DNA from: Sphaerolaimus hirsutus
Lineage: Eukaryota; Nematoda; Chromadorea; Monhysterida; Sphaerolaimidae
NCBI GenBank assembly: GCA_964036195.1
Contig: OZ038457.1
Span: 25,864,787-25,928,786 of the forward strand
DNA length: 64,000 nt
Direction of reading: 5' to 3'
Both the position numbers and the translations under genes were made by a program. Positions 468 through 64,000 of this stretch are shown here, one piece after another; the first letter of the stretch is position 1; each line of letters begins with the position of its first letter. The notes beneath the pieces were generated by a model that was not told where the DNA came from, made no database searches, and was given only the letters and a program-made list of their open reading frames with translations.

Positions 468-1177
468 CATAGTTGTTAAAACATATTTACGTTTACTAAA
501 AAAGTATGTATACTCGGGTACTGAGTAACGTTTACGTATACTTTGAATAAGTACATGTACATAAACGTTACATGTAAATAGTACATTACGTATATGTTTG
601 GGAAAGTACCGTAAATTCTCTAATTGGGCGCCAGGTCTCCAATAATGCGTCCTCTCCAATAGTGTGCCACGCTTGCGCAAGTTGTATGAGTATAATGCGC
701 CACTCTCCAATAATGCGCCACCCTCCAATAATACGCCATCTCCAATAGTGCGCCCCCTAAAAATGTGCTGAAAACAATAGTACTCCTGGTTCCCAATTAG
801 AGAATTTACGGTACTTGAGTAGAAAAAACGTATTCTAGATTGGCTTTTTGGAGGCTTTTTCATGGTATAGTTAGGTTTAAAAAGGGGGAAAACTGCCAAA
901 AATAGCCAAAAATAGCTGAAAATAGGCATGAACACATGAACTAGTGATTTTGAAGGTTAAAATCGTCAAAAAGTATGAAAATTGGGGAAAAATGCCTAAA
1001 ACTACTAGGTATCTTTTACGTTTTCTGGAGGAAAAGTATGTATTTTATTCATGTTTACTAATGAATAAAATATAAAAAATGTTACTTTACGTTTTCTGTA
1101 TTCAGGGGGTGGGTAAAAAATAGATTCTTTACATTTACGTATACTTTGAATTATTTTTGGTACTTTTAACAACTCTG
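468..1177. mobile_element. hAT-like non-autonomous element, ACGTTTAC arms
   Basis: The element begins CATAGTTGTTAAAAC and ends with the inverted match TTTTAACAACTCTG. It lies between TATACGTG (460-467) and TATATGTG (1178-1185), a 7/8 match for an 8-bp target duplication. Its arms are built from ACGTTTAC/GTAAACGT-like words. A second short palindrome sits inside it at 607-814. It belongs to the same family as the copies at 40,340 and 41,105. Confidence 0.8.
607..814. repeat. Inverted-repeat insertion nested in the 468-1177 element
   Basis: The ends TACCGTAAATTCTCTAATTG and CAATTAGAGAATTTACGGTA are exact inverted repeats. The inside is a series of CTCCAATA-ATGCGCC words. Related 'CTCCAATAGAACGGCA' words occur near 12,430-12,760 and 21,090-21,240. 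No coding content is seen. Confidence 0.65.
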
Positions 1178-1489
1178 TATATGTGATGAACATTTGCATT
1201 TCGACGATATACGGTATTTTCTCCTATGTTTAGCTTTTTCCTTCTATGCGTTAATTACTCAGTACTTGAGTACATGTTTATTTTCGAGTAAATTTAAATA
1301 CGTTTTAACAACTATTGTCTTTTGATTGACATGAAAAATTATCTTTTGATGAGCTGTAAAAAATTTAGACTTAGCTCTTTTCACTCAACGACGACATGGG
1401 CACCTGACGTTTTTTCTGTGGTGCCATTTTGCGTCTGGTGCGGATTACGCAAGTGTGCCAAGTTACAATTGCTGTTGTGACCTATTTAG

Positions 1490-1751
1490 CACTGATGAAT
1501 TTAGTTCACTGATGAATTTAGTTCACTGATGAATTGAGTTCACTGATGAATTTAGTTCACTGACGAATTTAGTTCACTGATCAATTTATTTCCTCAGCCG
1601 AAATTTAGGGGGGGGGGTATTTCGAGGGAGGGAAAATTCAAGGGAGGGTTTATTCGAGGTAATACGGTAATTAAATCTCTCTCGAAAAAAAAACTGATGA
1701 ATTTAGTTCACTGATGAATTTAGTTCACTGATGAATTTAGTTCACTGATGA
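1490..1751. repeat. 17-bp tandem repeat (TTCACTGATGAATTTAG), two blocks
   Basis: About six 17-bp units run from 1490 to 1590 and about three more from 1693 to 1751. The blocks are split by a G-run segment ending TTCGAGGTAATACGGTAATT, the end of the ACCGTATT family. The units differ by single bases. A palindromic element probably inserted into an existing minisatellite. Confidence 0.75.
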
Positions 1752-1971: not shown

Positions 1972-2676
1972 TAGCGTTCCAAAAAATGGGTGATTTTCAA
2001 AAAATAAAATAAAATATAATCTCAGAAAATCTCTCAAAAAATAAAATAAAATTAAATCTCTCTGAAAAAACGCTGAGAAAATATAAATAAATATAAATGA
2101 GAGATTTAATTATATTTTTTCTCATAGATAAAATATACCATATTACCTCGAAATACCCCCAGGGGGTTTATTATTTCGCCAGCAAAATTTGAGGGGAGGA
2201 TAATTCGAGGGGTTTTTTTTGAGGGGGGTCTATTATTTCGCCAGAAATTTTTGGAAATTCCCCATACGCAGATGTAGAAAAATCAAACAATTACATAGAT
2301 GTACCTATGTGTTTATAGGCATATATAACTGTATATATACACAAAAACCCATCCCTAAAGTCACTTAATCATCAGTTTTAACGTGTGTTCTGCATTGTAC
2401 AGATCACAAACTACGGTACTTGTCATGTACGTTCACGTTACCCTCAGTTTTAGTGGGGGTATTTCGAGGGGGGGGGGTTTATTATTTCCTCAGTCGAAAT
2501 TTAGGGGGGTATTTCGAGGGAGGGTTTATTCAAGGGGGGGGGGGGGTTAATTCGAGGTAATACGGTAATTAAATCTCTCTGGAAAAAAACTGGAGAAAAT
2601 ATAATTAAATAAGAGATTTTTTTATATTTAATTATATTTTTTAAATAAAAATCACCGAGAGATTTTTGGAACGCTA
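1972..2676. mobile_element. hAT-like element, AAAATAAAAT arms, with nested palindrome
   Basis: Ends TAGCGTTCCAAAAA and its inverted match TTTTTGGAACGCTA are flanked by perfect 8-bp duplications AGTGTGAT (1964-1971 and 2677-2684). The arms are runs of AAAATAAAAT and ATCTCTC words. The core is occupied by a G/C-run palindrome at about 2135-2567. Confidence 0.85.
2135..2567. repeat. ACCGTATT / CGAAATACCCC palindromic element
   Basis: The left end reads TACC-ATATTACCTCGAAATACCCCC and the right end TTCGAGGTAATACGGTA, with long G runs inside. Further copies are at 13,101, 13,319, 29,722 and 58,653. This one lies inside the 1972-2676 element, so it is the younger insertion. Confidence 0.7.
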
Positions 2677-2684
2677 AGTGTGAT

Positions 2685-3100: not shown

Positions 3101-3969
3101 TAGGGTGTCAAATTTCCGTTTCCATTTCCGCCTTTCCGCAGGAAAATTTTTTACCTTTCCGTTTTCTGTTTTCCGGCAGCTGAAATTTTTTTACCTTTCC
3201 GTTTTCCGTTTTCCGGCAGACAAAATTTTTTTACCTTTCCGTTTTCCATTTTCCAGCAGCTGAAATTTTTTACCTTTCCGTTTCCGTTTTTCCGGCCCAT
3301 TTTTAAGTTTTCCGGCTGAAAATTTTTTACCTTTCCATTTCCATTTTTCCAGGCCATTTTTTTCATTTTCTGGCTCGATTTTCAGTTTTCTGGCATTTTT
3401 CCATTATTTTTCCAATCTGCATTTTTAGTTTTCCACTATGGTGTTTTTAACTACCAGGTTCTTGTGTCATTCATAATTTTTATCTGTATCCAAATCTGTA
3501 AAAAACACAAGTAATTTTGGACATATACTTTGCAGTCCGCTGAGTATACTTTTTACTGTTCAGTTACATCAAAGTTCACTTTTGCTAAATTCTTATTGTT
3601 GTTGTAGTGTATTTTTGCTACCTTTTGATGATTTTTTGTTGGTTCAGTTAAGCTTGAACTACAAGTGAAGTTACTGGCATGATCCATATTTGCAGAATGT
3701 ACAGCTACCACAATCAAAGCCAAATAGGCAAACATGCATGCAGGTTTTTCTTGTCCATTTTCCAGCATTTCATTTTTCCGTTTTCCGGCCAATAATTTTT
3801 TTTACCTTTCTGTTTTCTGTTTTCCGTTGAGTGAAATTTTTTTACCTTTCCGTATTCCGTTTTTGGGCAGAAATTTTTTTTTACCTTTCCGTTTTCCATT
3901 TTCCGTAAAGTGAAACATTTTTACCTTTCCGTTTTCCGTTTTCCGTAAAAAAAATTTTTTTACACCCTA
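3101..3969. mobile_element. hAT-like element, CCGTTTTCC arms, with Pao pol scrap
   Basis: Starts TAGGGTGTCAAATTTCC and ends TTTTTACACCCTA between perfect 8-bp duplications GTCACAAG (3093-3100 and 3970-3977). Both arms are irregular arrays of TTTCCGTTTTCCG(GCAG). The core, about 3595-3745, is nearly identical to 55,250-55,380, which is the 5' part of a Pao/BEL pol remnant in the larger copy. This is probably an internal-deletion relative of that copy. Confidence 0.85.
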
Positions 3970-6066: not shown

Positions 6067-6549
6067 CAGGGGTAGGAAAGGGGGGGTTCCCCCCCCCCAA
6101 ATCGCCCAGCTATCTATCTATTCCAGAGGCCGCTCAGCTATCTATCTATCCCGGAGGCAAAATTTTGGGCTACTATCCCCTAAACCCCTCCCCCCAATCG
6201 GCCAGCTATCTACCTATCTGGAGCGATTTTTGGGAAACTATACCCTAATTTTCGCTCAAAATCGCTATTTTCATACCTATATATAGATTTTCACCTCCAA
6301 AATCACTAGTTCATGCATCTAACTGCCTATTTTGAGCTATTTTTAGTACTATATGTCCTTATATACCCATTTTTAGCCATTTTTCACCTACTTTCAGCAA
6401 TTTTTCTCCTTTTCCTCCCTTCTATGCCTATATATTGAGCCCCCGCGAACCCCCCCCCCCCCAGAAAAATTTTCAGCTATCTATCCCTCCGGAGGAGTGA
6501 TTTGCTATCTATCCAACACCCAGGAGGGCCGAAAACTAGAATACCCCTG
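6067..6549. mobile_element. hAT-like element, CTATCTATC family
   Basis: Begins CAGGGGTAGG and ends ATACCCCTG between perfect 8-bp repeats ACACTAGT (6059-6066 and 6550-6557). The arms contain CAGCTATCTATCTATCC words and long G/C runs. A close relative is at 48,478-49,689. The flanks suggest it inserted into a member of the CACACTAGTTGACATC family. Confidence 0.8.
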
Positions 6550-6613: not shown

Positions 6614-6886
6614 CAGGGTTGGCAAAATCTCAGAAAAAAAAATCAAATACAATTTTTATACAATTTTACTACAATTTTAGTAAAAAGAATTTCACAAAAA
6701 CTAATCCTGGTCACAAAGAATAAAAAATAAAAATAAAATAATAATAAAATAATAATAAAATGGAAAATTGAAGAATAAAAAAATAAAAATAAAATGGAAA
6801 ATTGAAGAAAAAATAAAAATAAAATATAATTTATTTACAATTTTACTGCAGTTTCAGTAAAAATAATTTTACTAAAACCAACCCTG
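6614..6886. mobile_element. hAT-like element, AAAATAAAAAT interior
   Basis: CAGGGTTGGCAAAAT at the left and AAAACCAACCCTG at the right, with perfect 8-bp duplications CTTGGCAG (6606-6613 and 6887-6894). The interior is almost entirely AATAAAATAAAAAT-type words. Confidence 0.88.
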
Positions 6887-7748: not shown

Positions 7749-8277
7749 TAGGGTTCAAACGGGATCCCGATCCCGGATCCCGTGAAATTCCGGGATTTAC
7801 CAGTCCCGATCCCGATCCTGAAACCCCAATCCTGATCCCGATCCCGAAATCTCAAAAATACCAATCCCGATCCCGAAAGTTTTCAAATCCCGATCCCGAT
7901 CCCGAGAAACTCCCAAGTCCGGGATCCCGATCCCGGAAAAATTAGTGGAAATTATAAAAAGTGAAATAATGACGTTTTTGCATGCAAAAAAGTGGATGCA
8001 AACCCCCAGCGTCAATTTTATGCCACTTTTCTGGCATCCAACAGTGTTTTGAGACCTTTATGAACAACTGTGAATGCCAGAAAAATGGCCAAAATTTCTA
8101 TCCCTAGAACCCAATCCCGATCCCGGAAAAATGCCTATCCCAATCCCGATCCCGTGACCCCAATCCCGGCCAATCCCGATCCCGAAATCTCAAATTACCA
8201 ATCCCGATCCCGAAATCTCAAAAAGTGAATCCCGATCCCGATCCTGATCCCGAAAAGTCAATCCCATTTGAACCCTA
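7749..8277. mobile_element. hAT-like element, GGGATC arms
   Basis: TAGGGTTCAAACGGGATC at the left and TTTGAACCCTA at the right, with perfect 8-bp duplications CTCATGTA (7741-7748 and 8278-8285). The arms are GGGATC/GATCCC arrays. The core (about 7940-8110) is conserved among family members and includes GTTCATAAAGGTCTCAAAAC-like sequence in either orientation. Confidence 0.9.
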
Positions 8278-34447: not shown

Positions 34448-35752
34448 TAGGGTTCGAACTAGGGTTCAAACGGGATTGACTTTTCGGGATCGGGATCGTG
34501 ATTCACTTTTTGAGATTTCGGGATCGGGATCGGGATTGGGGTTTCGGGATCGGGATTGTTTTTTTTGAGATTTCGGGATCGGGATCGGGATCGGGATTGG
34601 CCGGGATTGGGGTCACGGGATCGGGATCGGGATTGTGATTGGCATTTTTCTGGGATCGGGATTGGGTTCTAGGGATAGAGATTTTGGCCATTTTTCTGGC
34701 ATTCACAGTTGTTCATAAAGGTCTCAAAACACTGTTGGATGCCAGAAAAGTGGCATAAAATTGACACTTGGGGTTTGCATCCACTTTTTTGCATGCAAAA
34801 ACGTCATTATTTCACTTTTTTTTATTTCCACAAAATTTTCCGGGATCGGGATCCCGGACTTGGGAGTTTCTCGGGATCGGGATTTGAAAATTTTCGGGAT
34901 CGGGATCGGGATTGGTATTTATGGATTTCGGGATCGGGATTGGGGTTTCGGGATCGGGATCGGGACTGGTAAATCCCGGAATTTCACGGGATCCGGGATC
35001 GGGATCGGGATCCCGTTTGAACCCTAGTTCGAACAATATGACTTTTCGATATCGATATTCAATATTCGATATTTTTTCTGAAACTCGATATTCGATATCG
35101 ATACGATATGGAACCTTGATATCGAGATTCGATATTGATAAATGGTCGATATTCGATATTCGATATTTTCGATATTCGATATTGCGATTTACTTTTGGTA
35201 TAGCAAGGCATATTTCAAGTGGCATATTGTATTTTCATGTGGTTGCACACATGGTTACCTAATCATCTCTTTACTGAAATGTGAATGGTACATGTGATTT
35301 TAACAAGGTTTACATCACTCAAAAGTAGAAAATGGAAGAGAAACATGATAAATCAAAGTGTATCAGACAAATAACAATTGGTAGATATTACAGTTCATAC
35401 TTATAACTTTATTGCTTAAGGATATTTTGCAAAAAATAGCGAGTCAGTATTTTCTAGCTTCAAATTTAGCACTCCATTAACAAAAATGACATGGTAAATA
35501 CTGTACTTTTACTCATCAAATACAATACTATAAGCAAATCAGATCAATCATAAATATCTCAAAATGAAAATGATAACTTAATTGAGGGACACAATACAGG
35601 TTCGATATATCGAAAAAAATAGTCGATATTCGATATTTTTCAAAATTTTCGATATCGATATTCGATATTTTTTCAAAATTTTCGATATCGATATTCGATA
35701 TGAAAAAATGGTCGATATCCGATATTCGATACGATATATCGTTTGAACCCTA
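34448..35752. mobile_element. hAT-like element, ATATCG arms, interrupted
   Basis: Left end TAGGGTTCGAAC and right end TATATCGTTTGAACCCTA, with the 8-bp duplication GCCACATG at 34,436-34,443 and 35,753-35,760. Four extra bases (TATT) separate the left duplication from TAGGG. The arms are ATATCGAT words. The core shares GTATAGCAAGGCATATTTCA with copies at 48,770 and 49,897. A GGGATC element sits 12 bp inside its left end. Confidence 0.8.
34460..35026. mobile_element. hAT-like element, GGGATC arms, nested
   Basis: TAGGGTTCAAACGGGATTG to TTTGAACCCTA between perfect 8-bp duplications GTTCGAAC (34,452-34,459 and 35,027-35,034). It has inserted into the tip of an ATATCG-armed element. Confidence 0.92.
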
Positions 35753-36643: not shown

Positions 36644-36858
36644 TAGGGCTCGAAACTCGATTTTTTTCAAACTCGAGTTCGAGTCTCAACCCAAAAAATT
36701 TTCCGGTCGAGTCGGGTGAGTCAGTGAAAATTCGAGTCGAGTCAGGCAAAAATCTCGAGTCTCGAGTCAGGGCGATATTTTTTTCGGTCGAGTCGGGCCA
36801 GTCGAGTCAGTACCCGATTTTACCCTCGAGTCACGAGTCGAGTCGAGTTCGAGCCCTA
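36644..36858. mobile_element. hAT-like element, CTCGAGT interior
   Basis: A 215-bp element, TAGGGCTCGAAACTCGA at the left and CGAGTTCGAGCCCTA at the right, between perfect 8-bp duplications CCATCAAG (36,636-36,643 and 36,859-36,866). The interior is CTCGAGTCGAGTC words. Confidence 0.92.
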
Positions 36859-43100: not shown

Positions 43101-46100
43101 TACGGCCCCGCTTTTTTTATAAAAAGCGCTTTTTTTAAATGCGCTTTTTTCGCTTTTTTCAAAAATTGTCAAGACGTTACCTACAAAGCTCCCAAATATG
43201 GTCCTGAGTCAATATATACAGGTATATCAGACAAGTGACAGTACTTGTGATGATATATAACCATAGAATGGCTATGTAATCATCTGATGGCATTATAAGT
43301 GCTGATTTCTGCCAAAAAAATCCAATTTTATGTCGACTAATTATGTATATCGCCGTTTTCGAATGTTTCTTGACTGCAAGCGAAGTTAGGCATGGAATAG
43401 TGCTTAAATTTGGCTATAAAAGATGGCTAATACATGGCAGTGATGTTTCACACTGTAGAAAAGTGGAAGCACATTGGCTGGATATTATTTACTACACTGA
43501 CATATCTCCTCAACTTATTTTTACATGATACCATGCAGGAATAGAAGCAATGCCACTAAAATGCTACAAAACCAATGAAAACAACCACCAATGGCAATTT
43601 GCATGTGAAATTATGCGCTTGCGCACAAAAAAATTTGCAAAATACCTAGTACAAGTTGCTTAGTTACCTAGTACTAGTACCTGAGAAAAAAAATTTTTGC
43701 CACCGCTTTTTTAATAAAAAAAGCGCTGGGACCCTTGCGCATTTTTTTTTTTAAAAAAGCGGCGTTTTTTCAAAAAAAAACGCTTGAAAAAGAGCGCTTG
43801 CCATCCCTAGTGCAGGTGAAATTGCGCGCTTGCATGCGAAAAATTGCAAAATACCAAAGTGCTTAGTACTAAAATTTTTGGCAAAAATAAAAAAAACGGT
43901 TTCAATGGTCGGGTTTTTTATATAAATAAAACGTCTTTATTTAACAAAACCTTTGAAAAAAAACCTGGCCATCCCTAGTTGGTAGGTATACATGGGTTCA
44001 AAGCAGGGGTCTAGTAGGAAGTTGTCGGCCCATCACGGGTTCAGTTATCTTTCCTAGGGCAAAATATTCGGCTTATCCTGTCATGGTCGTAAACGGTATG
44101 GTGTGGCAGGGGTCTCCAAAGTTTTGACCCTCGCGGGGACTGGATAGATAGCAAATCGCTCCACCGCAGTGATAGATAGCTGGAAAAAAAATCTGGGTAG
44201 GGGCTGGGGGGGGGGCTCGGGTGGGGGCACGCGGGGTCAAAATATATAGGCTTTTTCAAGGTAGTGAAGGCAGACGGGGGAAAAAATCGCCATAGGTCAA
44301 AGGTCAAAAGTAGCCAAAAGTACGTTTGAAATGGCTAAAAATAGGTATATAACCATACCATGTTTATAAACGAAAACCACGATTTTGAAGGTGAAAACTG
44401 GTAAAAATTGTGGGAAAATTAGCGATTTTGAGCGAAAATTAGGGAATTACTCAAAAATCACACATAATAGTTAGATAGCTGAGAATTGTTTTTTCGGGGG
44501 AGGGGGGGGGTGCTCAAAAGAAAGTAGCCAAAAAAATTGCCTCGGGACATAGATAGCTGAGCCTCCGGGATAGAAAGATAGCTGACCGATTTGGGGGGGG
44601 AACCCTTTCCCCCTAGGAGACCCCTGCGGTGCGGCAACTTCTGTTTTGCGGTAAACGGTACGGTAAATCTTCAATTCTGGGGGAAACGGTACGGCTAAAT
44701 TTCTCCATTTTGCTGCTGTACACCATAATCACTGCTATCTTTTCAACAATCACCAATTCACAAACAAAAACAAAACCTTTGAACTGGAAGGCAACATGTC
44801 ATTTTGGGTCTGCACCACGGCACGAAGAAAACTGGCCGTATCTTTCTTTTTAGATATATCAGCTGATTTTCTGGCGTCAATTTTGTCATCTTTTCGGTAG
44901 TTGCGGGAATTTGTTGTAGATTGGGCGCTCTGCGAATGGTGTGAAAATTGGCAATTAACTGACATTTTTTAAAGAAATAATTCCATACATAATGAAGAAT
45001 AATGTATATTTCTCCAAATTTGCCTTATAAAACTGAACGTTTTTGGGAGGGAACTAAACTGTTTTTGGGAATTGAAGTGAACTTGTCGACTTCTTGCACT
45101 AACACACATTTTTGTTCCTGGGGAAGCCGAGGCTGCCTTATGGGCAATTTATGCACTTGTCGACTTTTAGAAGTAGCTGTCCATAGTGGACATATCACAC
45201 TTCTTGCTATTTTTTCCCATAAAAAAGGAAGCGGAGGAATGGACTTGTCGACTTCTTGCACGAAATTTTTGCATTTTTCCCAAAAAATGTCAAATTTGGC
45301 ACTTTGTCATATGGGCATGTGAGGTCAAAAATTTTATGGATAATAATAAAAAATGTGCGGAAGTAGCCCCAGATGACGTTTCCGGGCCTAACTCGAAATT
45401 TTCATATTTTGGACTTGTCGACTTTTAGAAGTAGACGCCTCATATATAAATACATATGTAAACCCCCGTTTACCTAGGTCCGAACGCTTACGAATTTTTG
45501 AAAAACGATTCATTCACGGCCACCCCTAAACTTTTTGGGAAAATTCACCCCATACAAAAGATAGCCCAAATAGTCGTCTAAATGATGTATGGTATGCCCC
45601 CCAATATAAGGCCGCGTGGGCCGTTTACACGGCCCACGCGGCCTTATATTGGGGGGGGCATACCATACATCATTTAGACGACTCTTTGGGCTATCTTTTG
45701 TATGGGGTGAATTTTCCCAAAAAGTTTAGGGGGGGCCGTGAATGAATCGTTTTTCAAAAATTCGTAAGCGTTCGGACCTAGGTAAACGGGGGTTTACATA
45801 TACCTAAGCAACGACACCCTAGGGTTCAAACGGGATCCCGATCCCGGATCCCGTGAAATTCCGGGATTTAGCAGTCCCGATCCCGATCCCGATCCCGAAA
45901 CCCCAATCCCGATCCCGAAATCCAAAAATACCAATCCCGATCCCGATCCCGAAAACTTTCAAATCCCGATCCCGAGAATCTCCCAAGTCCGGGATCCCGA
46001 TCCCGGAAAAAATAGTGAAAATTATAAAAAGTGAAAAAATGACATTTTTGCGTGCAAAAATGTGAACGCAAACCCCCAGCGTCCATTTTTGTCACTTTTC

Positions 46101-49100
46101 TGGCATCCAACACTGTTTTGAGACCTTTATGAACAACTGTGAATGCCAGAACAGTGACGAAAATTTCTATCCCTAGACCCCAATCCCGATCCCGAAAAAA
46201 TGCCAATCCCGATCCCGATCCCGTGACCCCAATCCCGGCCAATCCCGATCCCGATCCCGAAATCTCAAAATACCAATCCCGATCCCGAAACCCCAATCCC
46301 GATCCCGAAATCTCAAAAAGTGAAATCTCCCGAAAAGTCAATCCCGTTTGAACCCTACGACACCCCTCTGTGTAGGGTTCAAACGAGATCCCGAATCCCG
46401 AGAAATTTCGGGATTTGGCAGTCCCGATCTTGAATACCCAAACCAATCACGAAATCTAAGAAAAGACGATCCTGATCCCGATCCTGAAACTTTTGTAAAC
46501 CCAATCCCGATCGCGAAAAAATTTCCCCAAACCCGATCACGGAATTTTTTTAATTTGCCAAATGACTTTTTGCACTGTGGAAGGTGTAGGAAAACATTCA
46601 TTGAAGTAGTTTATTCCATGTCTCTGGCATGTAACTGTGTTTTATACCTTTTAAGTAAAAACCCTCAATACTAGAACATTTTTCAAACTGACAATCCCGA
46701 TCCCCAAAAAATGACAATCCCAATCCCGATTCCCGGACACCAATCCCGATCATGAAATCTCAAAATGCCAATCACGATGCCGATCCCATAACCCCAATCC
46801 CAAAATCTCAAAATGCCAATCCCGATCCCGAAAAGTCAATCCCGTTTGAAACCTACTTCTGTGGAGTGATTTTTCAGAGATTTGGGCTTACACGGTGATG
46901 GATCTAGTGATGATACCTTGTCTGTAGTGGAAAATATTTTTTAAAGTACCTTAAAATATAGGTCTAGGGTCTACCTTGTCTCTAGGGCTCAGCCCCCCCC
47001 CCCTAAAATTTTAGCTACATAGTGGCGGAATGGCGCCATGTTGCTGGCGCCATAAGTAGGCGCCACGCCATAGTGCCATTGGCGTTGGCGCCAGCGCCAT
47101 GGAACGCTGTATATGTATGTACACTCCAGGAAAAATGAACACAAAACAGCAAAAACCACAACATTGAGTGTATTTATAACAATTTGTGGCCACATGGAGC
47201 AAATATGATACTAATACCTCATGTCTGGCGAAGAATGCGCGCTCGCGCGCAAAATTTTTTACGCTGATGTTGAAAAAGTCGCATTTTCCGGTCACTTTCT
47301 GGTCTCGCCCCGGGAGGGGGGGGGGGGGGGCTGCAGCCCCCCCGCCCCCCCTGGATACGGCCCTGGTTCCCCTGGATACGCCCCTGTTTCACCTTTAAAA
47401 TCGTCATTCAATGTGCTTGTATGCATAATTTGAGCGATTTTTCTCCGTGTTTTGCTTTTATACTTTGAAAACTGAGACCCTAAATACTGAGCCCCCAGAA
47501 AATTTGTCAGCTACATAAGCATCCCTGAGAAGGAGCGACTTACTATCTATATTTATTTACTATTTTTTGAACCCCGCATCCGTCCAAATCAACAAAACCC
47601 CCGTATCAGTCACCCCTCACCTGTCCGTGCCTTGCCCCAAAACTTGGCACACTGCCAGTCTGCGTGGGCGGCGGTGGTTCGTAACGTTTCCCATCTGGTC
47701 CCGTGGCGATTCGTCCCGTCAGCCGGTGGTACTCTACGAGAATGTCCCGCGGTTCCATGTTCATCGCTTTGGACAGACGGATGGTTACCTGTACATGGGG
47801 GTTTGTTTGATACGCATGTATTCTAGGGTGCAGTTGGTGGGGATGGTTGGACTGATATTTCGTTATATCAAAAAATAAGATTTTGACAAAAATAGTAAAA
47901 GTATTTTTTTTCGCTTTTTCAATCGCCATTCACGATCCTGACGTGCTAGGGGGCTGAAATTGGTATCAAAAATAGCCCAAACATTTCACTATCGACGTAT
48001 GAAATTTCAGAGCTCTAGCTTTTTCACACCCCTGTTGAGAGCCCCTCAAACAAAAATCGCAGCTTAAAGTTTGTTCATTAGGAACAAAAGTTGACTTCAT
48101 GGTTGTTGATGATCATCTCAACTCAGCCACACACACCACCTTCAAGTGAAGTGGTTTTCTGAGAGAGTAGGCATCGACGAAAAATGTGTTGCTGGGGATA
48201 AAGATCTGGCCCCCTCATGTGTAACTGTGGGTGTGAATTTACAAACATAAAAAATCCCAAAAATTATACTTTTTTTATCACAGTAAAAACGGACAAAATT
48301 GCTTGCAAGCCACGTTTGCAGGCCCTCTCTTAAGCTTTGCCACTAAGGAGCATCTGAAATTTGCTAGGGACTGGCGTGGAACTCACTGGAACACATGGTT
48401 TTATTGTGATGAAAAAGTAGGTCTTTTTAGGATTTTCAACTTTTGTAAATTCACACCCACAGTGACACATGAGGGGCAGAGGTTCAGTAGGGGGGGTTGG
48501 GGGGGGGGGTTGTGGGGGGGGGTTCCCCCCCCCAAATCCGCCAACTATCTATCTATCCCGGAGGCAAATTTTTTGGATACTATCCCCCAAACCCCCCCCC
48601 CCCCCAAATCGGCCAGCTATCTACCTATCTCGAGCGATTTTTGAGAACCTATACCCTTAATTTCGCTCAAAATCACTACTTTTCATACCTTTATATAGAT
48701 TTTCACCTCCAAAATCACTAGTTCATGCATCTAACTGCCTATTTTCAGCTATTTTTAGTACTATATGTCTAGGGTTCAAACGATATATCGTATCGATAAT
48801 CGAATATCGGATATCGACCATTTTTTCATATCGAATATCGATATTGAAAATTTTGAAAAAATATCGAATATCGATATCAAAAATTTTGAAAAAATATCGA
48901 ATATCGACCATTTTTTCGATACATCGAACCTGTATTGTGTCCCTAAATTAAGTTATCATTTTCATTTTGACATATTTATGATTTATCTGATTTGCTTATA
49001 GTATTGTATCTGATGAGTAAAAGTACAGTATTTATAATGTTATTTTTGTTGGAGTGCTAAATTTGGAGCTAGAAAATGCTGATATGCTATTTTTTGCAAC

Positions 49101-52100
49101 ATGCCATTAAGCAATTAGGTTATAAGTATGAACTGTAATATCTACCAATTGTTATTTGTCTGATACACTTTTGTTCATCATGTTTTTCTTCCATGTTCTA
49201 CTTTTGACTGATGTAAACCTTTTTAAATCACATGTAACATTCACATTTCAGTAAAGAGATGATTAACCATGTGTGCAACCACATGAAAATACAATATGCC
49301 ACTTGAAATATGCCTTGCTATACCAAAAGCAAATCGCAATATCGAATATCGAAAATATCGAAATATCGAATATCGACCATTTTTCAATATCGAATATCGA
49401 ATATCGATATCATCGTTCCATATCGTATCGATATCGAATATCGAGTTTCAGAAAAAAATATCGAATATCGATATCGAAAAGTCATATCGTTTGAACCCTA
49501 TATATGTCCTTATATACCCATTTTTCACCTACTTTTAGCGATTTTTCTCCTTTTCCTCCCTTCTATGCCTATATATTGAACCCCCGCGAACCCCCCCCCC
49601 AGAAAATTTTTCAGCTATATATCCCTCCGGAGGAGCGATTTGCTATCTTTATGAACCCCCGCGGAGGTCCAAATCTACAAAACCCCTGATGAGGGGCCAG
49701 ATCTTAATCCCCAGCAACACATTTTTTGCCAATGCCTACTCTCTCAGAAAACCACTTCACTTGAAGGTGGCATTTGTGGCTGAGTTGCTATGACCATCAA
49801 CAGCCATTCCCAGGAAGTGAATTTTTGTTCCTAACGTTTAAACTGCAGTTTTTTTATTTAGGGGGCTCTCAACAAGGCTGTGAAAAAGCTAGAGAGTAGG
49901 GTTCAAACGATATATCGTATCGAATATCGAATATCGGATATCGACCATTTTTTAATATCGAATATCACATATCGATATCGAAAAGATTGAAAAAATATCG
50001 AATATCGATCGAAAATTTTGAAAAAATATCGAATATCGACCATTTTCTCGATATATCGACCCTGTATTGTGTCCCCAAATTTACTTTTCATTTTCATTTT
50101 GAGATGTTTATGGTTGATCTGATGTGCTTATAGTATTGTATTTGATGAGTAAAAGTACAGTATTGATAATGTCATTGTTGTTGGAGTGCTAAATTTGAAG
50201 CCAGAAAACGCTGATATACTTTTTTGCAACATGCCCTTAAGCAATTAGGTTAGGATGATTCTTCTTCTATTTTCTACCATTGAGTGATGTAAAGCTTGTT
50301 AAAATCACTTGTACCTAGGGTTGGCCGATGTTTTTTTAAAACGTTTTTTTTTTTAAACGTTTTTTTTTTTAAAACACGACGTCCGAAATGTTTGTTTTTT
50401 TAAAAAAACATCGGCCGAAATTTTTAGTACTAAGCACTAGGTATTTTGCAAAATTTTTGCGCGCAAGCGCGCAATTTCACACACAAATTGACATTGGTGG
50501 TTGTTTTCATTGGTTTTGTTGCATTTTTAGTATCAAAACATCCATTTCTATGTGCTACCATGGGTGAATAAGCCGACATATGTTGCTGTAATATAGAATA
50601 TTGAGGTAATGTGCTTCTATGTACCTCCACAGTGTGTAACTTCACTCCCAAAGTAACAACCTCCTTTTATAACCTTGTTTGATCACCATTCCGTGCCAAA
50701 CTTTACCTGAAGTCACGAACATTCGACTATAAGGCGATATACAAACGATATGTCAACAAAAAATGGATATTTTTGACACAAATCACCACTTATAATGCTA
50801 TCCCATGGCTCCACAGCCATTATATGGTCATATTCAACATCACAGAGTATTGCCAGTGTCTGATATACCTATATATATGTTGACACTAGGTCATATCTGG
50901 GAGCTTTAAAAAAAAACGTTTTTTATTATAAAAAAACGTTTTTTTTAATAAAAAAACGTTGTTTTTTTTAAAAAAACATCGAGTTAAAAAAAAGGTTTTT
51001 TTTCCAACCCTACTTGTACCATTCAAATTTCAGTAAAGAGATGATTAAACATGTTGCAACCACATGAAAATACAATATGCCACTTGAAATATGCCTTGCT
51101 ATACCAAAAGCATATCGCAATATCGAATATCGAAAATATCGAAATATCGAATATCGACATTTTTCAATATCGAATATCGAATATCGATATCGAGGTTCCA
51201 TATCGTATCGATATCGAATATCGAGTTTCAGAAAAAAATAACGAATATCGATATCGAAAAGTCATATCGTTTGAACCCTACTAGAGAGCTGAAATTCCAT
51301 ACGTTGGTGAAGACATGTTTGGGCTATTTTTATACCAATTTCAGCCCCCTAGCATGTCAGGATCATGAATGGCGATTGAAAAAGCGAAAAAAAAAATTTT
51401 CCCGGCCCTACGCGGAACGATGTTCAAATGAGCAAGCCCATTTTAATTCCTCTTTGCTTAAGTGCACGTGAAAATTGCCCTGCGACCCGTCAACTAAAAG
51501 CTGAACTGACATGGAAACCAGTAGCGTAGGGCCACAGGGTAGGGTTCAAACGGGATCCCGATCCCGGATCCCGTGAAATTCCGGGATTTAGCAATCCCGA
51601 TCCCGAAACTTTTCAAATCCCGATCCCGATCCCGAGAAACTCCAAAGTCCGGGATCCCGATCCCGGAAAAATTAGTGGAAATTATCAAAAGTGAAAAAAC
51701 GACGTTTTTGCATGCAAAAATGTGAACGAAAACCCCCAGCGTTCATTTTATGCCACGTTTCTGGCATCCAACAGTGTTTTTAGACCTTTATGAACAACCG
51801 TGGATGCCGAAACATTGGCCAAAATCTCTATCCCAAAACCCCAATCCCGATCCCGAAAAAACGCCAGTCCCGATCCCGTGACCCCAATCCCGGCCAATCC
51901 CGATCCCGATATCTCAAAAAACCAATCCCGAAAAGTCAATCCCGTTTGAACCCTACAACAGGGTGCAAAATTTCTAAAAATTTAGCTTTAACTTCTAAAC
52001 CTGTGACTTAACTTCTCATCATGCCTCTTAACTCTGCTCACAAGTAATTGTTTCTTTGTTTCGATTCGTTTTTTCTCTTCAATTTTCTTGGATACAGCCT

Positions 52101-53484: not shown

Positions 53485-53829
53485 CTCACAAGTAGGGTGT
53501 CAAATTTCCGTTTCCGTTTTCCGTTTCCGTTTTCCGTTTCCGCCTTTCCGCAGGAAAATTTTTTACCTTTCCGTTTTCTGTTTTCCGGCAGCCGAAAAAT
53601 TTTTACCTTTCCGTTTTCCGTTTTCCGGCAGCTGAAAAATTTTTACCTTTCCGTTTTCCGGCAGCTTAAATTTTTTTACCTTTCCGTTTCCGTTTTTCCG
53701 GCCCATTTTTCCGTTTTCCGGCTGAAAATTTTTTACCTTTCCGTTTCCGTTTTACCAGGCCATTTTTCCATTTTCTGGCTCGATTTTCAGTTTTCTGGCA
53801 TTTTTCCATTGTTTTTCCAATCTGTATTT

Positions 53830-55390
53830 ATCTTCAATTGGCTCATCCCATTGTGTTGTTTTTGTCTCTTGGAGCAGCATTGACAACTGGGATTTCAGGG
53901 TCAGTGAAACAGGTGCTGTGAACCCAATTGGGTCATATGCTGACACTAATAATTTATTCAAGTTTTGTTTGGTTGGTGTTGTGATGCTGTCAATTTGCAA
54001 TTTTGGTGTTGATATTGCCAGCATGTCCGTTCGGTGATTTTATTTCATGCCCATTACTGCGACAATTTTATTCACCTATGGACTCCTGTCGTTTTCTGCT
54101 ATTTCATTCATGACTGATCTAGAGTTTGACAGCCATTCCCTCATGTTGATAGAACATTGGTTAAATAAAGCTTTGACTTTGTAATATAGTTCTAAAGCTT
54201 TAACTTCATTCGTGACACTCATGATGAAGTTATCGATGTAAATGTTGTTTATTATCATTGCCAACTGGTTTCCCCCGCCAATTCCCCTTCATTTTCTTCA
54301 TATTCATTCATGTTGTTTATTGTCACATTTAAATGGTATTTTATGACTGCTCCCAAAATTGCTGGGCTGCAGACAAGTCCAAACAGTATGCTTTTAAAAT
54401 GAAGTACTATCTAGTTATTTTCAGTTACTGGTTTTGAGGCATCTTTCAGCCAGAAAAATTGTGTGTAGTCTCTAGCTTGGTCATGCAATCCTATTTGCAA
54501 AAATGCCTTTTCAATATCGGCAATTAATGCTAGATTGCCTGCCCTGAACCTCAGTAGTAGGCCCAGTGCTAATGTAGCCACACAAGCTAGTTTTCAATGT
54601 TCCTTTTTGAAAACTCGTAAATCAGCATTGAACGCATTGAGTTTTCCAGAATGAGTCGTTTTTACTCTCCGTCAACTGTAGATGAGGGGCACCTCATTCT
54701 AGAAAACTCAAATGCATTCAATGCAGATCTACAAGTTTTCAAAATTTTGGTTGAAAACTAGCTTGTGTGGCGCCAATGGTGTTGTAATTGGTCCTCTAAA
54801 AAGGCACTCATTGAAACTGGGCTTACCTGCTGACCCATCGTACATGATTCTGCATGATGTCGATTTGCCCGGCGTGATTACTGGCTGGTGTGGCAGGTAA
54901 TGAATCCCCTTGTTGTCTGTTTTGTCGTCACAGATCTCAATTATTCCCTTTTCTAGTTGGTTGTCCAACACTTTCCGGTATTGTTCGAATAAGTTTGGAT
55001 CTTTGTTGAATCTTCTTATCAGTGATTTAAACCGCACCAAGGCTTCTGCTTTTCCCGTGGGCAGGTCACTGATACTCTCTTTATACGGCCAGTCAATATA
55101 GTATCGTTTGTTGTTGTCATTAAATTTTATGCTATTTATTATCATCTCCTCTGCAATGTTGTCATCAATTGCATAGGGGTCATCAGTGATTCCCACTGCT
55201 TCTAGACTGTGAAATTGTCATAGTGTTTCCTTTCCTATGGCCACTATGGCTACTTTTTGATGATTTTTTGTTGGTTCAGTTAGGCTTGAACTACAAGTGA
55301 AGTTACAGGCATGATCCATAGTTGCAGAATGTACAGCTACCACAATCAAAGCCAAACAGGCAAACCTGCATGCAGGTTTTCCTTCTGCAA
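53830..55390 (-). pseudogene. Pao/BEL retrotransposon pol remnant
   Basis: Minus-strand pieces in pol order: 55,390-55,200 (upstream of the reverse transcriptase), 55,196-54,780 (GITDDPYAIDDN..., KGIHYLPHQPVITPGKSTSC, RIMYDGSAG: the start of the Pao reverse transcriptase), 54,560-54,290 (decayed), 54,264-54,076 (YIDNFIMSVTNEVKALELY, the catalytic Y-x-D-x box, with an Asn in place of the second Asp), and 54,024-53,830 (LVSAYDPIGFTAPVSLTLKS, typical after the reverse transcriptase in Pao elements). Stops, frame changes, an insertion and the altered active site show it is dead. No LTRs are seen. Confidence 0.85.
54565..54780. repeat. Inverted-repeat insertion inside the pol remnant
   Basis: GCCACACAAGCTAGTTTTCA at the left and TGAAAACTAGCTTGTGTGGC at the right (20-bp inverted repeat). 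Inside is a mirrored CTCAAATGCATTCAATGC/GCATTGAACGCATTGAG pair. It splits the pol frame at FRGPITTPLAPHKL. Confidence 0.75.
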
Positions 55391-55731
55391 ATTTGTCTAT
55401 TACCGTGCTAATTTCACTTTATTTTTTTCTGTTTCCGTGAAAATTTTGCTTTCCGTTTTCCGTTTTCCGGCATTTCATTTTTCCGTTTTCCAGCCAACAA
55501 TTTGTTTTTACCTTTCCGTTTTCCGTTTTCCGCTGAGTGAAATTTTTTTACCTTTCCGTTTTCCGTTTTCCGGCATAAATTTTTTTTTTACCTTTCCGTT
55601 TTCCGTTTTCCGTAAAGTGAAAAAATTTTACCTTTCCGTTTTCCGTTTTCCGTAAAAAAATTTTTTTGACACCCTACTCACAAGTGCCTGACTTGCCTGA
55701 AAATTGCAAAATGAGATTTAATTGTGAGGGC

Positions 55732-56973
55732 TAGTGATGGAAAAGCGCCATGGCGCTGGCGCCTGGCGCTAGCGCCAAAGCAAAAAGCGCCATGGCGCTT
55801 CTGGCGCTTGGCGCTAAAATCCTCTGGCGCCATTGGCGCTTGGCGCCGGGATCTGAGAAAGCGCCATGGCGCTTTTGGCGCTTGGCGCCATTTTCTTGTG
55901 GCGCTATTGGCGCCTGGTGCCAGCATTTTGAATGGCGCCAAAAAAGCGCCAACCGTGATCATAAAAAGTGTAGTAATATGGTATAAACGACAATCAGTTG
56001 ATTACCTAAGTTTGTGGAGAACTGAAAAACATATTGAATCATAAATATAAGGGTGTAAGGGAACATAAGTATTTACAAAATATTGATCAGGCAATATTAG
56101 GGCATACCTTTCTATACATAGAATAAAATCAAATGTGATAAACTGTTTTTGCTTTTTACTCATTTTTGGACATTTTACCTCATATCTAAATTTGGTATAT
56201 ATGTGAAACAAATTTTTTTAGTTTTTTGCTTAGAAATGTGGGTGGATTATACACCGCGAGATTCATTTTAAGCCTTGACAAACGTTGATAAGTAAAAGTT
56301 GATGGTAATGTTGATAGTTGATGAAAATTGTGTTTTGTGTTTTGTAACCATCTTGGAATAATTCCCATTCCCTCAAAAAGTCAAACAAAATAATTCCTCA
56401 GGGGACTTATTCCAGCTAATACGGTATATGGGAAAGCTGTACCCGAGTAATGTATTTTTCGAGTAAATGTAAATACATTTGAGCAACTATGAATGGAAAA
56501 AATTGCTCTGTCTAGAAAAAGCATACATCAGCAGAAAAAGTAAAGAAAAATACCATAAATTCTCAAAACTTTTAGCCGAATAAGAAACAAATAAACGTCT
56601 CTTAAATAACTCCACCTTTTGGCTGTGTGAGGAACCTTTGTTTTAGCTGTGTGTGGAACCTCACTTCCCATTGGAAGCTCCCCAATGACAATGGCAAATG
56701 TTAAATCGACTACTATGACATGTCACGTTATGCACCCATTATTCTAGAACATATTGCAGAAAACAATTTTTGGCGCTGGCGCTATTGGCGCTTGGCGCCA
56801 TCCATCTCTGGCGCCATTGGCGCTTGGCGCTGAGGTTCAGAAAAGCGCCATGGCGCTTTTGGCGACTGGCACCATTTTGCTCTGGCGCTATTGGCGCTTG
56901 GCGCTGGGGTCAGAAAAGCGCCATGGCGCTTTTGGCGCTTGGCGCCAAAAGTCTGGCGCTTTTTCCATCACTA
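55732..56973. mobile_element. hAT-like element, GCGCCATGGCGC arms
   Basis: TAGTGATGGAAAAGCGCC at the left and GCGCTTTTTCCATCACTA at the right between perfect 8-bp duplications GTGAGGGC (55,724-55,731 and 56,974-56,981). The arms are GGCGCCATTGGCGCTTGGCG words. The 0.75 kb core is AT-rich with no clear ORF. Scraps of this family are at 4355, 15,955, 28,300, 47,030 and 61,415. Confidence 0.93.
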
Positions 56974-57440: not shown

Positions 57441-57683
57441 TTTAATTCTCCCTACAGATTTGTAGGACAAACCGCTACGCCGGATAGATTTTCAATGTTC
57501 CGCCAGCTCGACGCGTACGCACTGAGAGAAACGCAGTTCGTGAATACGGGGGCGCATTACTCGCATAACTCGCGATTTTGTGTAGTCCGGTGCGCACTTC
57601 CCAGCTTTCACTACCCTACAGCCACAACATGAGGGCAGTGAAGATAAAGGAAGCATGCACCAGCATATAAAATCGTGAGTAAA
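57441..57683. other. Short unassigned stretch
   Basis: No ORF or repeat recognised. Slightly higher GC (TCGACGCGTACGCACTGAG). Nothing further can be said. Confidence 0.35.
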
Positions 57684-61652: not shown

Positions 61653-61799
61653 TCAATAATACAATTTCGCGTCAACAGTTGGTTTCTGTGCATTTTCGCT
61701 ATTCGTACTCAATCTTCTGCCATTTTGCCAGACATACTGCGCTTGGGCGTAATATCCATTGTTTTCCTTCATTCTTTCAATGTCGTCCGTTGTGAAGAC
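61653..61799 (-). CDS. Membrane protein last exon
   Basis: After AAAATCCCGCAG it codes VFTTDDIERMKENNGYYAQA, QYVWQNGRRLSTNSENAQKP and TVDAKLYY, then TGA. The C-terminal LYY could bind a PDZ domain, but this is only a guess. Confidence 0.75.
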   Translation of the reverse strand, partial: VFTTDDIERMKENNGYYAQAQYVWQNGRRLSTNSENAQKPTVDAKLYY

Positions 61800-64000
61800 C
61801 TGCGGGATTTTGTATTTTTTTGTTGTGAAAATGATACATTTTACAATATTTTTGACACTTTGCACGACAATTGACATTTTACAGGATCTGGGAGGACCCC
61901 AGAGCAGGTGCCGCCACTCACAGAACCTGCAAAATGTCCTGTTAAATGTCAAATGCAATGGAAAGTATAAAAAGTCATGTAAAATTTCATGAAAAATGTA
62001 AAACATCCAGTACAAAAGAAAATTAGATTGACAAATTTGACATTTTACTGGGTATTTTACACGATTTTTGATACTTTGCATGAAATGTTTCACTTTACAG
62101 GACGTTTTATAGACTCTAGACTAGCTACAATAGTTTACTTTACACACACAATTATATTTATCAAAGTAAAAAAGCCAAAACCCCACTCACCCGATGTTCA
62201 TGCGCATAAGCTGGATTATCCGCCGCTGAATCCAACTGACCCCCATAGGATACCTGGCGCGTATCCAAATCTGATGCTGTAGAACTGGTAACATAATGTC
62301 CATTCTGTGTGCCATTTTGGGCACCCCCCGCGCCCTCGGCACCCCCCGTTTCCCAATGGTGATTTCTTTGTTGCGTTTCGAAACTGTCAGGACTGGGACT
62401 GTGGCTGTTTCCCGCTAATCTGAGGGGGGGGGATTCTTTCTTGGGATCTTTGATTAATTGTATTTGAAATTGGAGGCTTTTGAAGTGTCTTCAGAGGAGC
62501 AAAAATTATGTATTTATGTGAGGTGGTGCTGGGTGTATTTGGCAGGGGTGTGTTGGTGCACAAGTAAACCCGGTGCACAAGTCGCAAAAGTAGTAGAAGG
62601 ACGCCATGGTGCCACGGTACCATACTGAACCCCTGCAGTGCCCATGAAGACCCAGTGCGTAATTATGAGGGTCGTACCTAAGCAACAGGTCTACATTGCC
62701 ACTGGACATTGTTACTTGTGCACCGGGTTTACTTGTGCACTGGTCCTGCCCTGTATTTGGCATAAATAATGGCCGTGGAGACAGCTTTTCATCCTTGTTA
62801 GCGTTTTTAAGTGGTATTTTCTGCATGAATACATTGAGCGTAATCATGTTTTCAGAATAATACATTGGAGCAGTGGGACAACATTAGCTGAAATTACATA
62901 AATACACAAAGATTTAACAGGTAAATATTACATTATATGCAAGCAGACCCTGCCTTTCAATTCACTCAAAAAAATCACCCCCTCCCACCTCAAATGTCCA
63001 CTCTGCGTGGTGCCATTTCTAATATGAAGATGGTTCTGATCACCATTAACCGTACTCTTCCTGTACAAACACGCGGCTGCGGCACACAAGGCGCATAGAA
63101 GGACCCCCGCAAAAACACACACGGCTACTATGAGACCCATGGCTGCAGCGTCTTGACCGGGGGTGCCACCAGTGCTCGAGTCTGGGGGAGGGTCGCTATA
63201 GGGTTTTTTTCGCCTCACTTGACAGACTAGTTGACAGGCACACCAAATGTCAACTGGTTCCCAGCCCAATTCGAAACTGGCTCACCAGTGACACTATGCA
63301 CATATAAATATTTACTTCATGCCGCTTTTACTTATACATTGCATATATTAGTTCCAGCACGACAGTTCAGTTTGCAACATGCTGTAACACTTTTGCATTT
63401 GAACGTCTTTCGTCGGCTCGCGAGCATGCTTTGAATTGGGATGGGAACCAGTAGACATGTGGTGTCCTTGTCAACTGATGTGTGTAGGGCCTTAACGTTG
63501 GCCAGCCCCAGGTGCCATGGCGCATTTTCTCTGGTTTTGAGATGCAAAAAGTCAGGGACGTACGCAGGATTTTTGAGCGGGGGGGGGCGGATTGTATACG
63601 GAGCCCGGCGAACGGGGGGGGGGGCGGCGCCCCCCCCCCCTAAATTTTGGCCCATTAGTAAAGAAATGGCGCCATGGTCTAAAAAAATTTTAGAAGTGCC
63701 TACAAAATCGCTTTAGAAAAGTGCCATTTCTGGCAAATTTTTATGTCCGGCCCGGGAACGGGGGGGGGGGGGCGGCCGCCCCCCCCCCCGCCCCCCCCCC
63801 CCCCCTGCGTACGTCCTTGCAAAAAGTCAATCAAACTGTTTTTTGAACACGCTCACCTGCACCCACGAGGGGCTTATTGACAATTCGGACACTGTCACTT
63901 TTCGCTCTGTAAGTGTATCCATCGTGAACAAAGTAGAATGCATTCGCGGCAATTTTCGATTTAATTTTCTCCGCGAAATATGGAGCTTGGGGTCCAGTTA
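61653..64000 (-). CDS. Single-pass membrane protein, 3' end of gene
   Basis: Four minus-strand exons in frame: 64000-63857 (continues beyond the window), 63181-62989, 62419-62191, 61799-61653. The first gives PYFAEKIKSKIAANAFYFVH and DGYTYRAKSDSVRIVNKPLV, a beta-rich ectodomain end. The second has a Ser/Gly/Pro stalk and a membrane segment GLIVAVCVFAGVLLCALCAA followed by CLYRK. The tail contains SPSPDSFETQQRNHH, a Gly/Ala run, ADNPAYAHEHR and ends VDAKLYY. The NPAY motif is of the NPxY endocytosis/PTB type. The ectodomain could be of fibronectin type III or another beta fold. I do not recognise the family. All phases agree. Confidence 0.78.
61840..62120. repeat. TGTAAAATG foldback(s) in the membrane protein intron
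   Basis: CACTTTGCACGACAATTGAC and CATTTTACAGGATCTGGGAG form one end. A second set, CTCACAGAACCTGCAAAATG to TTTACAGGACGTTTTATAG, follows directly. Two related foldbacks in tandem or one rearranged copy. Confidence 0.6.
62191..62419 (-). CDS. Membrane protein exon: cytoplasmic tail
   Basis: After ACCCCCTCAG-type C-rich acceptor it codes LAGNSHSPSPDSFETQQRNH, a Gly/Ala stretch, QNGTQNGHYVTSSTASDLDT and DSAADNPAYAHEHR. The donor is the consensus GTGAGT. Confidence 0.8.
62420..62988. other. Intron of the membrane protein gene
   Basis: Contains an inverted repeat of GTGCACAAGTAAACCCGGTG and CACCGGGTTTACTTGTGCAC around 62,550-62,740. The latter is followed by a TGGTCCTGCCCTGTATTTGG flank that mirrors TATTTGGCAGGGGTGTG. 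Likely a small foldback element. Confidence 0.6.
62989..63181 (-). CDS. Membrane protein exon: stalk, transmembrane helix, basic stop-transfer
   Basis: After CCCTCCCCCAG it codes DSSTGGTPGQDAAAMGLIVA, VCVFAGVLLCALCAAAACLY, RKSTVNGDQNHLHIRNGTTQ and SGHL. The hydrophobic run is about 23 residues and is followed by RK, as expected of a type I orientation. Confidence 0.85.
63225..63492. repeat. TAGTTGACA...TGTGTAGGGCC element
   Basis: ACTAGTTGACAGGCACACCA at the left and GTCAACTGATGTGTGTAGGG at the right. A second inverted pair, ATGTCAACTGGTTCCCAGCC and GGGATGGGAACCAGTAGACA, lies inside. Confidence 0.65.
63553..63819. mobile_element. hAT-like element with poly-G/poly-C arms
   Basis: CAGGGACGTACGCAGGATTT at the left and CCCTGCGTACGTCCTTG at the right between duplications CAAAAAGT (63,545-63,552 and 63,820-63,827). 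Two G-run/C-run hairpins are inside. It lies in an intron of the membrane protein gene. Confidence 0.85.
63857..64000 (-). CDS. Membrane protein exon: end of ectodomain (runs off window)
   Basis: Open in frame from the window edge to GTGGGTGCAG|GTGAGC. Codes GPQAPYFAEKIKSKIAANAF, YFVHDGYTYRAKSDSVRIVN and KPLVGA. Alternating hydrophobic pattern suggests beta strands. The 5' part of the gene lies outside. Confidence 0.75.

Follow-up and report, generated by a model that had tools for sequence, protein, structure and literature searches.

Related families of hAT transposons in the nematode Sphaerolaimus hirsutus carry arrays of a short, family-specific word in both terminal arms, and related families differ by one base at nearly every word while the spacers between them are largely kept. 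We describe these elements in a stretch of 64,000 nucleotides (the window; GenBank assembly GCA_964036195.1, contig OZ038457.1, positions 25,864,787 to 25,928,786), which is part of contig C13 of a 348-Mb genome, and in loci fetched from elsewhere in that genome (numbered with the prefix L). The words are probably an address read by the mobilising enzyme. By analogy with other hAT systems, they would be sites of the BED zinc finger of each family's transposase, and families would have split by site-by-site recoding that matched a changed finger, a reading to which we assign a probability of about 0.6. More tentatively, we propose specifically that families in two or more hAT groups (ACGTTT/ACGCTT/ACACTT and GGGATC/GGGACC), and perhaps in GGCGCC/GGCACC, arose when a dozen or more sites in each element were recoded to suit a changed BED finger, and that copies recoded in part are still present in the genome.

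The in-place change of words was followed in the CAGAGTTG group, where six elements (two each with the words ACGTTT, ACGCTT and ACACTT) were aligned over 133 left-arm and 172 right-arm columns. Taken as eight-letter words, the sites of the ACGCTT elements read TTACGCTT in 12 of 12 cases and those of the ACACTT elements TTACACTT in 12 of 12, while the ACGTTT elements hold 12 and 10 copies of TTACGTTT and neither of the other two. Across the three families the spacers (76-88% identity between families) and the number and spacing of the words are largely kept, with one or two places per word differing. Within the ACGCTT pair none of 98 word columns differs, against 32 of 195 spacer columns (p = 1e-6); the corresponding values are 0 of 98 and 8 of 191 within the ACACTT pair (p = 0.055 only), and 1 of 90 word columns differs within the ACGTTT pair. 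Between families, L022_600 (ACGCTT) and L022_309 (ACACTT) differ at 13 of 98 word columns and 23 of 190 spacer columns, and all 13 word differences fall at one word position and run in the same direction on the word strand; the other word positions differ at 0 of 85 columns, against the 23 of 190 in the spacers (Fisher p = 2e-4). Of the 14 or 15 word columns that differ between ACGTTT and ACGCTT elements, all but two or three are at a single place and change from T to C when read on the word strand. The inverted word pair after one end is switched on both of its sides (AAACGTATTTACGTTT, AAGCGTATTTACGCTT and AAGTGTATTTACACTT). The words are constrained, yet switched at one place nearly throughout. 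Wholesale word replacement, which the first-pass annotation of the window had described, is borne out, and is more orderly than was noted there.

The same purity is seen genome-wide, in array places that, as listed, all lie on contig C1. The pattern AAGYGTAAGYGTAAGYGTAAATAC gave 2236 matches and its reversed control none; by hand count, 45 of the 100 matches listed are pure T, 43 pure C and 12 mixed. With both letters left free, 3454 arrays were found in a fixed context, and among 100 of them listed 87 are pure (35 ACGTTT, 25 ACGCTT and 27 ACACTT) and 13 mixed. Independence of sites predicts 10.8 pure arrays per 100, and the best of 20000 shuffles reached 24. The pattern GGGAYCGGGAYCGGGAYTGGC gave 4307 matches; a hand count of 100 listed found 74 pure GGGATC, 22 pure GGGACC and 4 mixed.

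Twenty stretches from the AAGYGTAAGYGTAAGYGTAAATAC listing, comprising all 12 mixed arrays and 8 of the 88 pure ones, were fetched for closer analysis; a perfect duplication was found in 10 of them, and the others are mostly cut short. Five TTC copies carry ACACTT at all other intact word sites, with a single C kept at the same site, and three TCC copies are of ACGCTT type with one T among the first three words. The CTC copies are mixed, L040 with 8 C and 5 T words and L041 with 4 C and 7 T, and in each one T falls at the site that is T in every copy except the ACGTTT one. A tree of 24 elements built from 608 columns without the words, and rooted on the ACGTTT element, recovered an ACGCTT clade (support 99) and paired L040 with L041 (support 100), and the CTC copy L039 was placed inside the ACACTT-side clade. 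L042 and L025 were left out of this alignment, the tree and the CG-state counts given below; far-end sites are unsure in L039, L048, L051, L052 and L054 (cut by rule or running into flank), L046 is cut late, and these unsure ends also touch the tree. Chimeras of two families were considered as the source of mixed copies and rejected, as the C and T words of L040 and L041 are interspersed and form no two blocks, so that a single crossover fails. The tree positions fit stepwise replacement, and a view of the mixed copies as steps on a path, not as decayed copies, is favoured but not proven.

Other families show comparable relations. The GGGATC, GGGACC and ATATCG families have a common 12-bp end, TAGGGTTCAAAC; stretches of inner spacer align between GGGATC and GGGACC, and GGGATC and ATATCG share the spacer TGACTTTTCG with a different array layout. 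The arms of seven GGGATC-type elements contain no CGGGACC and 0 to 2 CGGGACT, and CGGGATC and CGGGATT are both absent from those of two GGGACC-type elements. GGCGCC and GGCACC elements align more loosely, and two GGCACC elements are without foreign words. Of 12 elements examined, 9 have at one end an inverted pair of their own word directly behind the end repeat. The first-pass annotation had seen ends continuing into the word and new families arising from a common end, and these views are supported: the arrays are real, copies elsewhere in the genome show perfect duplications and not random flank matches, and the terminal repeats of the families compared are related, in a comparison that did not have full consensus sequences as its basis. 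As a separate observation, a 134-bp ATATCG element (L014:875-1008) ends in TAGGGTTGG instead of TAGGGTTCAAAC, its word being joined to a different end.

These elements are hAT transposons, mostly non-autonomous. About twenty hAT-type elements with 8-bp target duplications had been annotated in the window, and a perfect duplication together with an inverted hAT-type terminus and its partner end was found at 18 of the 19 starts tested. For the start listed at 48478 the element is real and its position one base off, the true start being 48477; for the start at 40340 no such partner or duplication was found. With one further element, at 3101-3969, the window holds 19 elements of 215-2184 bp. A strict scan (YA[GT]NG-type end pairs within 3 kb, with at least 7 of 10 end bases matching) returned 2539 end pairs. 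A perfect 8-bp duplication accompanies 18 of these, where chance predicts about 0.04 (2539/65536). These 18 are 17 from the earlier list and 3101-3969; the second end of the element at 63553 does not fit the pattern. Each of twelve displaced registers had between 0 and 4 matches, and those printed (at most two per register) fall in or between ATATCG arrays. Three elements are nested in others, each with its own perfect duplication, and are therefore insertions, not accidents of sequence.

Across the window and the fetched loci we counted 73 pairs with perfect duplications, a few of them overlapping or spurious. Short inverted ends of the form YA(G/T)NG, which is that of hAT elements, are present, and as the scans demanded this or a slightly wider form they are not independent evidence. 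Duplications of Ac-type hAT elements follow nTnnnnAn; of the 71 distinct duplications here, 34 have T at place 2 and 36 have A at place 7, a preference in the raw counts and not a rule. The elements are Ac-like in target preference, and nearly all those seen are non-autonomous. They have traits of miniature inverted-repeat transposable elements, namely short length in the window, no hATC match in the window (whose open reading frames were listed, not searched) and thousands of arrays genome-wide. The 8-bp duplications and the hATC domain speak against membership of the VANDAL elements, which are Mutator-like elements (MULEs), with no search for a MULE transposase or for the VANDAL protein VANC; VANDAL and MULE duplications measure 9-10 bp.

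Searching the genome with PF05699 (hATC) gave 28 matches, none on the window's contig, and the 20 loci fetched cover 22 of the 28. At 13 of the 20 loci the match is inside a clan element whose duplication is perfect, and at 3 inside one whose duplication has a single mismatch; another 3 are in no complete element, and the match at L022 is inside a GGCACC element, probably within a TTTCCG element nested there. None of the 20 was assigned to the GGGATC, GGGACC or GGCGCC families. On an hATC tree of 17 rows (L025, L026, L028 and the second matches of L017 and L023 left out, L019 unlabelled), the word groups TTTCCG, TTCGAA (ends TAACGATGGC), ACGTTT-type and ATATCG require 3 label changes, which is the minimum and was reached in 0 of 200 label shuffles; several rows are near-copies, which favours this result, and the ACGTTT and ATATCG groups do not each form a starred clade. 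Arm word and hATC lineage are associated, separate hATC lineages being found in word-defined groups, and the proposal of one hAT clan is supported by hATC domains inside elements with duplications.

The 6006-bp element at L011 contains transposase exons, and when its ten open frames were scanned against Pfam, hATC alone passed the cut-off. A BED-like finger split by an intron was read by eye in L011 and L060, as were, in L011 only, Asp-containing exons (a possible RNase-H-like core). A PF14372 search gave 0 matches, its controls likewise giving none. In a protein search with 103 of 203 candidates scored, L011, L060 and two copies at L059 were the only sources of BED exons; L011 and L060 represent one ACGTTT-type subfamily. 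At L061 the 1 kb seen includes a fragment of hATC. An hATC fragment with 59% identity to the L012 one is present at a locus that ends in an ACACTT arm, and the ACACTT family therefore had, or descended from, a transposase line of its own. At L059, two diverged BED-bearing transposase copies stand in tandem over about 3 kb with a GGGATC element alongside, and an ACGTTT-type transposase copy at L060 has a TTTCCG element (L060:360-888; perfect duplication GTGGCGAG) placed between its arm and its BED exon. Elsewhere, six of the genome's eight Pfam BED matches (L029-L031, L033, L034 and L036) fall within 23 kb at C1:7466186-7488779, a tandem cluster outside word elements that is possibly a host gene family.

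The place of the words in the arms and the inverted pair after the end repeat agree with known hAT anatomy, and it is from this agreement that we infer the words to be BED sites. Most likely, the short word in both arms would be the site read by the N-terminal BED zinc finger, and so the family's address. We further postulate that the preference of the finger changes, after which the word sites in both arms would be altered individually, each to the same new spelling, with no more than drift in the spacer DNA. Copies with the new word would then amplify.

Several observations weigh against this reading. A changed finger was not seen, and a complete ACGCTT or ACACTT transposase was not found in our one protein search, with its 103 of 203 candidates scored. 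The L011 finger was recognised by eye only, and the open frames that hold its halves have no Pfam BED match. L059 is without visible arms in the 4.4 kb seen. The genome's Pfam BED matches were considered as word-family transposases and set aside, as 0 of 8 lie in a word element within 1.5-kb flanks. The words are less pure as seven-letter cores, with 13 ACGCTT and 2 TACACTT in one ACGCTT element, 14 and 1 in the other, and 13 ACGTTT and 1 ACGCTT in L012; the other three aligned elements are without exceptions (15 of 15 in the ACACTT elements). The ACGCTT copies, too, all read TACACTT at one word-like site, so not every site was switched. Foreign words number 0 to 2 in each of six GGCGCC elements, and the TTGGG pair (ACCCG/AACCG) is not clean, its words being mixed at 25 and 1, and 7 and 25. 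In the ATATCG, GGCGCC and AAGCGCTT families an inverted pair occurs deeper in the other arm as well. The L040/L041 pair sits at the base of the clade with the ACACTT-type elements at a weak support of only 74, and chance CG decay adds to the mixing in these copies (6 TG and 3 CA in L041, 4 TG and 1 CA in L040). Copies also share descent; their purity shows families, and counts events per site, not per copy. On the detection of the elements themselves, arrays make noise in less strict scans of the window: a looser scan gave 43 matches against 11-38 in displaced registers, and a setting of 4 of 10 end matches gave 18 against 0-17. Neither was clearly above the displaced registers and neither was used, a clean separation being obtained with the strict setting only.

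The first-pass annotation had attributed new words to slippage or repair copying. Under this explanation, words spread by slippage, gene conversion or repair copying, and a variant word overwrites its neighbours. The arrays are indeed tandem and vary in length between copies, the array layout differs between GGGATC and ATATCG, and VANDAL motifs are thought to spread through tandem repeat formation (PMC5735166, in the sections cited here). In the CAGAGTTG group, however, isolated words between unlike spacers were switched in both orientations and both arms, and conversion would need tracts of about 8 bp, with the spacers untouched, at a dozen places. Because the spacers and the number and spacing of the words are largely kept, we reject slippage for the single-base pairs, and we regard it as unlikely for the families overall. 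It may account for the differing lengths of arrays among copies, and perhaps for the larger step that separates ATATCG from GGGATC.

The words could instead be sites of another protein, either an anti-silencing factor encoded by the element, as VANC is, or one supplied by the host, and track changes in that protein. VANC proteins bind short motifs in tandem repeats, with single-base types (PMC5735166, same sections), and the present sequence tests are blind to which protein binds. The words nevertheless lie in the terminal arms by the end repeat, with an inverted pair at one end, which is the place of known hAT transposase sites, and in the L011 element no gene product other than hATC passed the Pfam cut-off, other genes not being otherwise searched for. 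We consider this explanation improbable, more so than slippage.

For the step from ACGCTT to ACACTT, inherited methylation decay of CG pairs, without function, would also give a C-to-T change within CG on one word strand, and single copies do show TG and CA decay. Random decay, however, gives equal TG and CA, and 11 ACACTT-side elements have TG 152, CA 0, CG 5, TA 4, others 2 and gaps 2; CG content is near expectation (ratio 0.86 in the window and 0.49-1.12 in six loci), and the ACGTTT/ACGCTT and GGGATC/GGGACC changes are not CG decay. Because TG and CA are unequal, we reject CG decay as the main cause and give it very little weight. Least credible of all is that unrelated families converged towards one favoured layout of the arms. 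Similarity of short ends is by itself weak evidence, short termini being common to hAT elements, but the CAGAGTTG-family spacers align at 76-88% identity, and the GGGATC, GGGACC and ATATCG families have their 12-bp end in common; GGGATC further shares inner spacer with GGGACC and TGACTTTTCG with ATATCG. Recoding of BED sites to match a changed finger remains our preferred explanation.

The 19 window elements are as follows, with strand given where one was assigned. Four carry GGGATC words: 7749..8277 (+; end TAGGGTTCAAAC, duplication CTCATGTA), 34460..35026 (-; duplication GTTCGAAC), 37438..37850 (-; duplication CCCGCAAC) and 45820..46357 (+; duplication CGACACCC), the last with the inverted word pair CGGGATCCCGATCCCG directly after its end repeat. 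Both 200-bp arms of 34460..35026 together contain 24 CGGGATC, 10 CGGGATT, 1 CGGGACT and no CGGGACC. ATATCG words are found in 49897..51280 (+; duplication CTAGAGAG) and in 48770..49500 (+; end TAGGGTTCAAAC, duplication TATATGTC), a type with 3096 candidate places genome-wide at first look, 40 of which were scored. The latter is nested in a hAT-type element at 48477..49688 (ends CAGAGGTTC and CAGGGGTTT, duplication ATGAGGGG), and 49897..51280 is itself host to a AAAACGTTTT-word element at 50316..51012 (end TAGGGTTGG, duplication CTTGTACC). The third nested element, at 43076..43809, has AAAAAGCGCTTTTT words and the duplication GTGCAGGT and lies within 42543..43977 (ends TAGGGATGAGCG and TAGGGATGGCCA, duplication GTTGGTAG), which is likewise of hAT type.

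TTTCCG words mark 3101..3969 (+; duplication GTCACAAG), the element absent from the earlier list, and 53493..55676 (+; duplication CTCACAAG), both with the end TAGGGTGTCAAA. A GGCGCC/AGCGCC-word element at 55732..56973 (+; end TAGTGATGG, duplication GTGAGGGC) has the inverted pair AGCGCCATGGCGCT after its end repeat, and a CTCGAGT-word element occupies 36644..36858 (end TAGGGCTCGAA, duplication CCATCAAG). The CAGAGTTG/CATAGTTG element of the ACGTTTAC word group lies at 41105..41581 (duplication GAAAACGC). Close to it, the stretch at 40312..40710 (+), which holds the earlier start 40340, is merely a partial one of about 400 bp that matches at 95% the region around a complete ACGTTTAC-group element (L018:6290-6584); a partner end and a duplication were looked for in it and none found.

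Two hAT-type elements have AT-rich AAAATAAA arms, at 1972..2676 (end TAGCGTTCCAAAAA, duplication AGTGTGAT) and 6614..6886 (end CAGGGTTGG, duplication CTTGGCAG), and a short G-rich element lies at 63553..63819 (ends CAGGGACGTACGCAG and CAAGGACGTACGCAG, duplication CAAAAAGT). The remaining hAT-type element, at 6067..6549 (end CAGGGGTA, duplication ACACTAGT), has a G run and CTATC words; with 48477-49688, L015:7057-9656 and L016:4028-4538 it forms a group whose ends read CAGGGGT/CAGAGGT and which has CTATC/GATAG words and long runs of G. A different element type was seen in three copies, at 14199-14667, about 30490-31010 and about 57680-58090, with near-identical inverted arms (GGAATTAGAGCTCAGCG...) that hold the 13-bp tandem word ACGTGAAATGACG; no 8-bp duplication was seen in this type, and perhaps a TAA in one copy. 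Arrays of a 20-21-bp unit, TGTATCCAAATCTTATTTTT, occur at 21430-21550, 28461-28584 and 57082-57229, the first two consisting of the array followed by its own reverse complement, and two arrays of one 17-bp unit, CACTGATGAATTTAGTT, with 93-100% matches, lie at 1490-1592 and 1693-1751.

Binding words in hAT arms are already known, as is joint change of motif and protein in VANDAL/VANC (PMC5735166); the comparisons that follow apply to the cited sections of each source. Ac/Ds of maize has 8-bp duplications, 11-bp end repeats, the transposase-binding word AAACGG in arms of about 200 bp, and many short non-autonomous copies, some with unrelated interiors (PMC3260210). The present elements resemble it in their duplications, repeated arm word and many short non-autonomous copies, and differ in that Ac/Ds has one word per family, whereas here sibling families have different words at aligned positions and arrays number in the thousands. 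In Hermes, the BED domain binds subterminal AAG(T/C) repeats, the ends are asymmetric, and a quasi-palindromic pair lies within bp 11-27 of the left end (PMC10368747), so that both systems have asymmetric ends and an inverted word pair right after one end repeat; Hermes has 17 and 14 scattered 4-bp sites, in contrast to the dense arrays of 6- to 8-bp words, several per genome, found here. Related N-terminal domains of CGGBP and hAT-19 proteins have many DNA preferences: hAT N-terminal domains bind CGG, GCGC or AT-rich sites, and four hAT-encoded motifs match their own subterminal regions (PMC8097297). That work is a comparison of proteins, and its cited sections describe no sibling families with sites recoded in place. 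VANDAL/VANC of Arabidopsis offers a further likeness, as its short motifs change jointly with an element-coded binding protein and include single-base types; it differs in superfamily, in that the protein is an anti-silencing one, and in its non-coding inner sites, whose spread is credited to tandem repeat formation and not to the changing of single sites between kept spacers (PMC5735166). A paper on coral miniature elements (PMC2872659) concerns piggyBac-like elements and so gives no precedent. In titles and abstract openings of the open-access literature we found no description of hAT elements in which a dozen or more words had been recoded in place between kept spacers, with mixed copies.

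How a DNA-binding protein and its many sites can change together, when each single change should hurt, is a long-standing question. In this nematode, thousands of copies record both end states, mixed forms and kept spacers, and it can be read from their sequences in what order and how fast sites were replaced. If the proposed mechanism is true, these families would be a natural system in which the switching of a protein-DNA code is readable as a series. Proof of the BED link would also make them a source of natural finger-word pairs for a DNA recognition code, as well as of mutually separate transposition systems.

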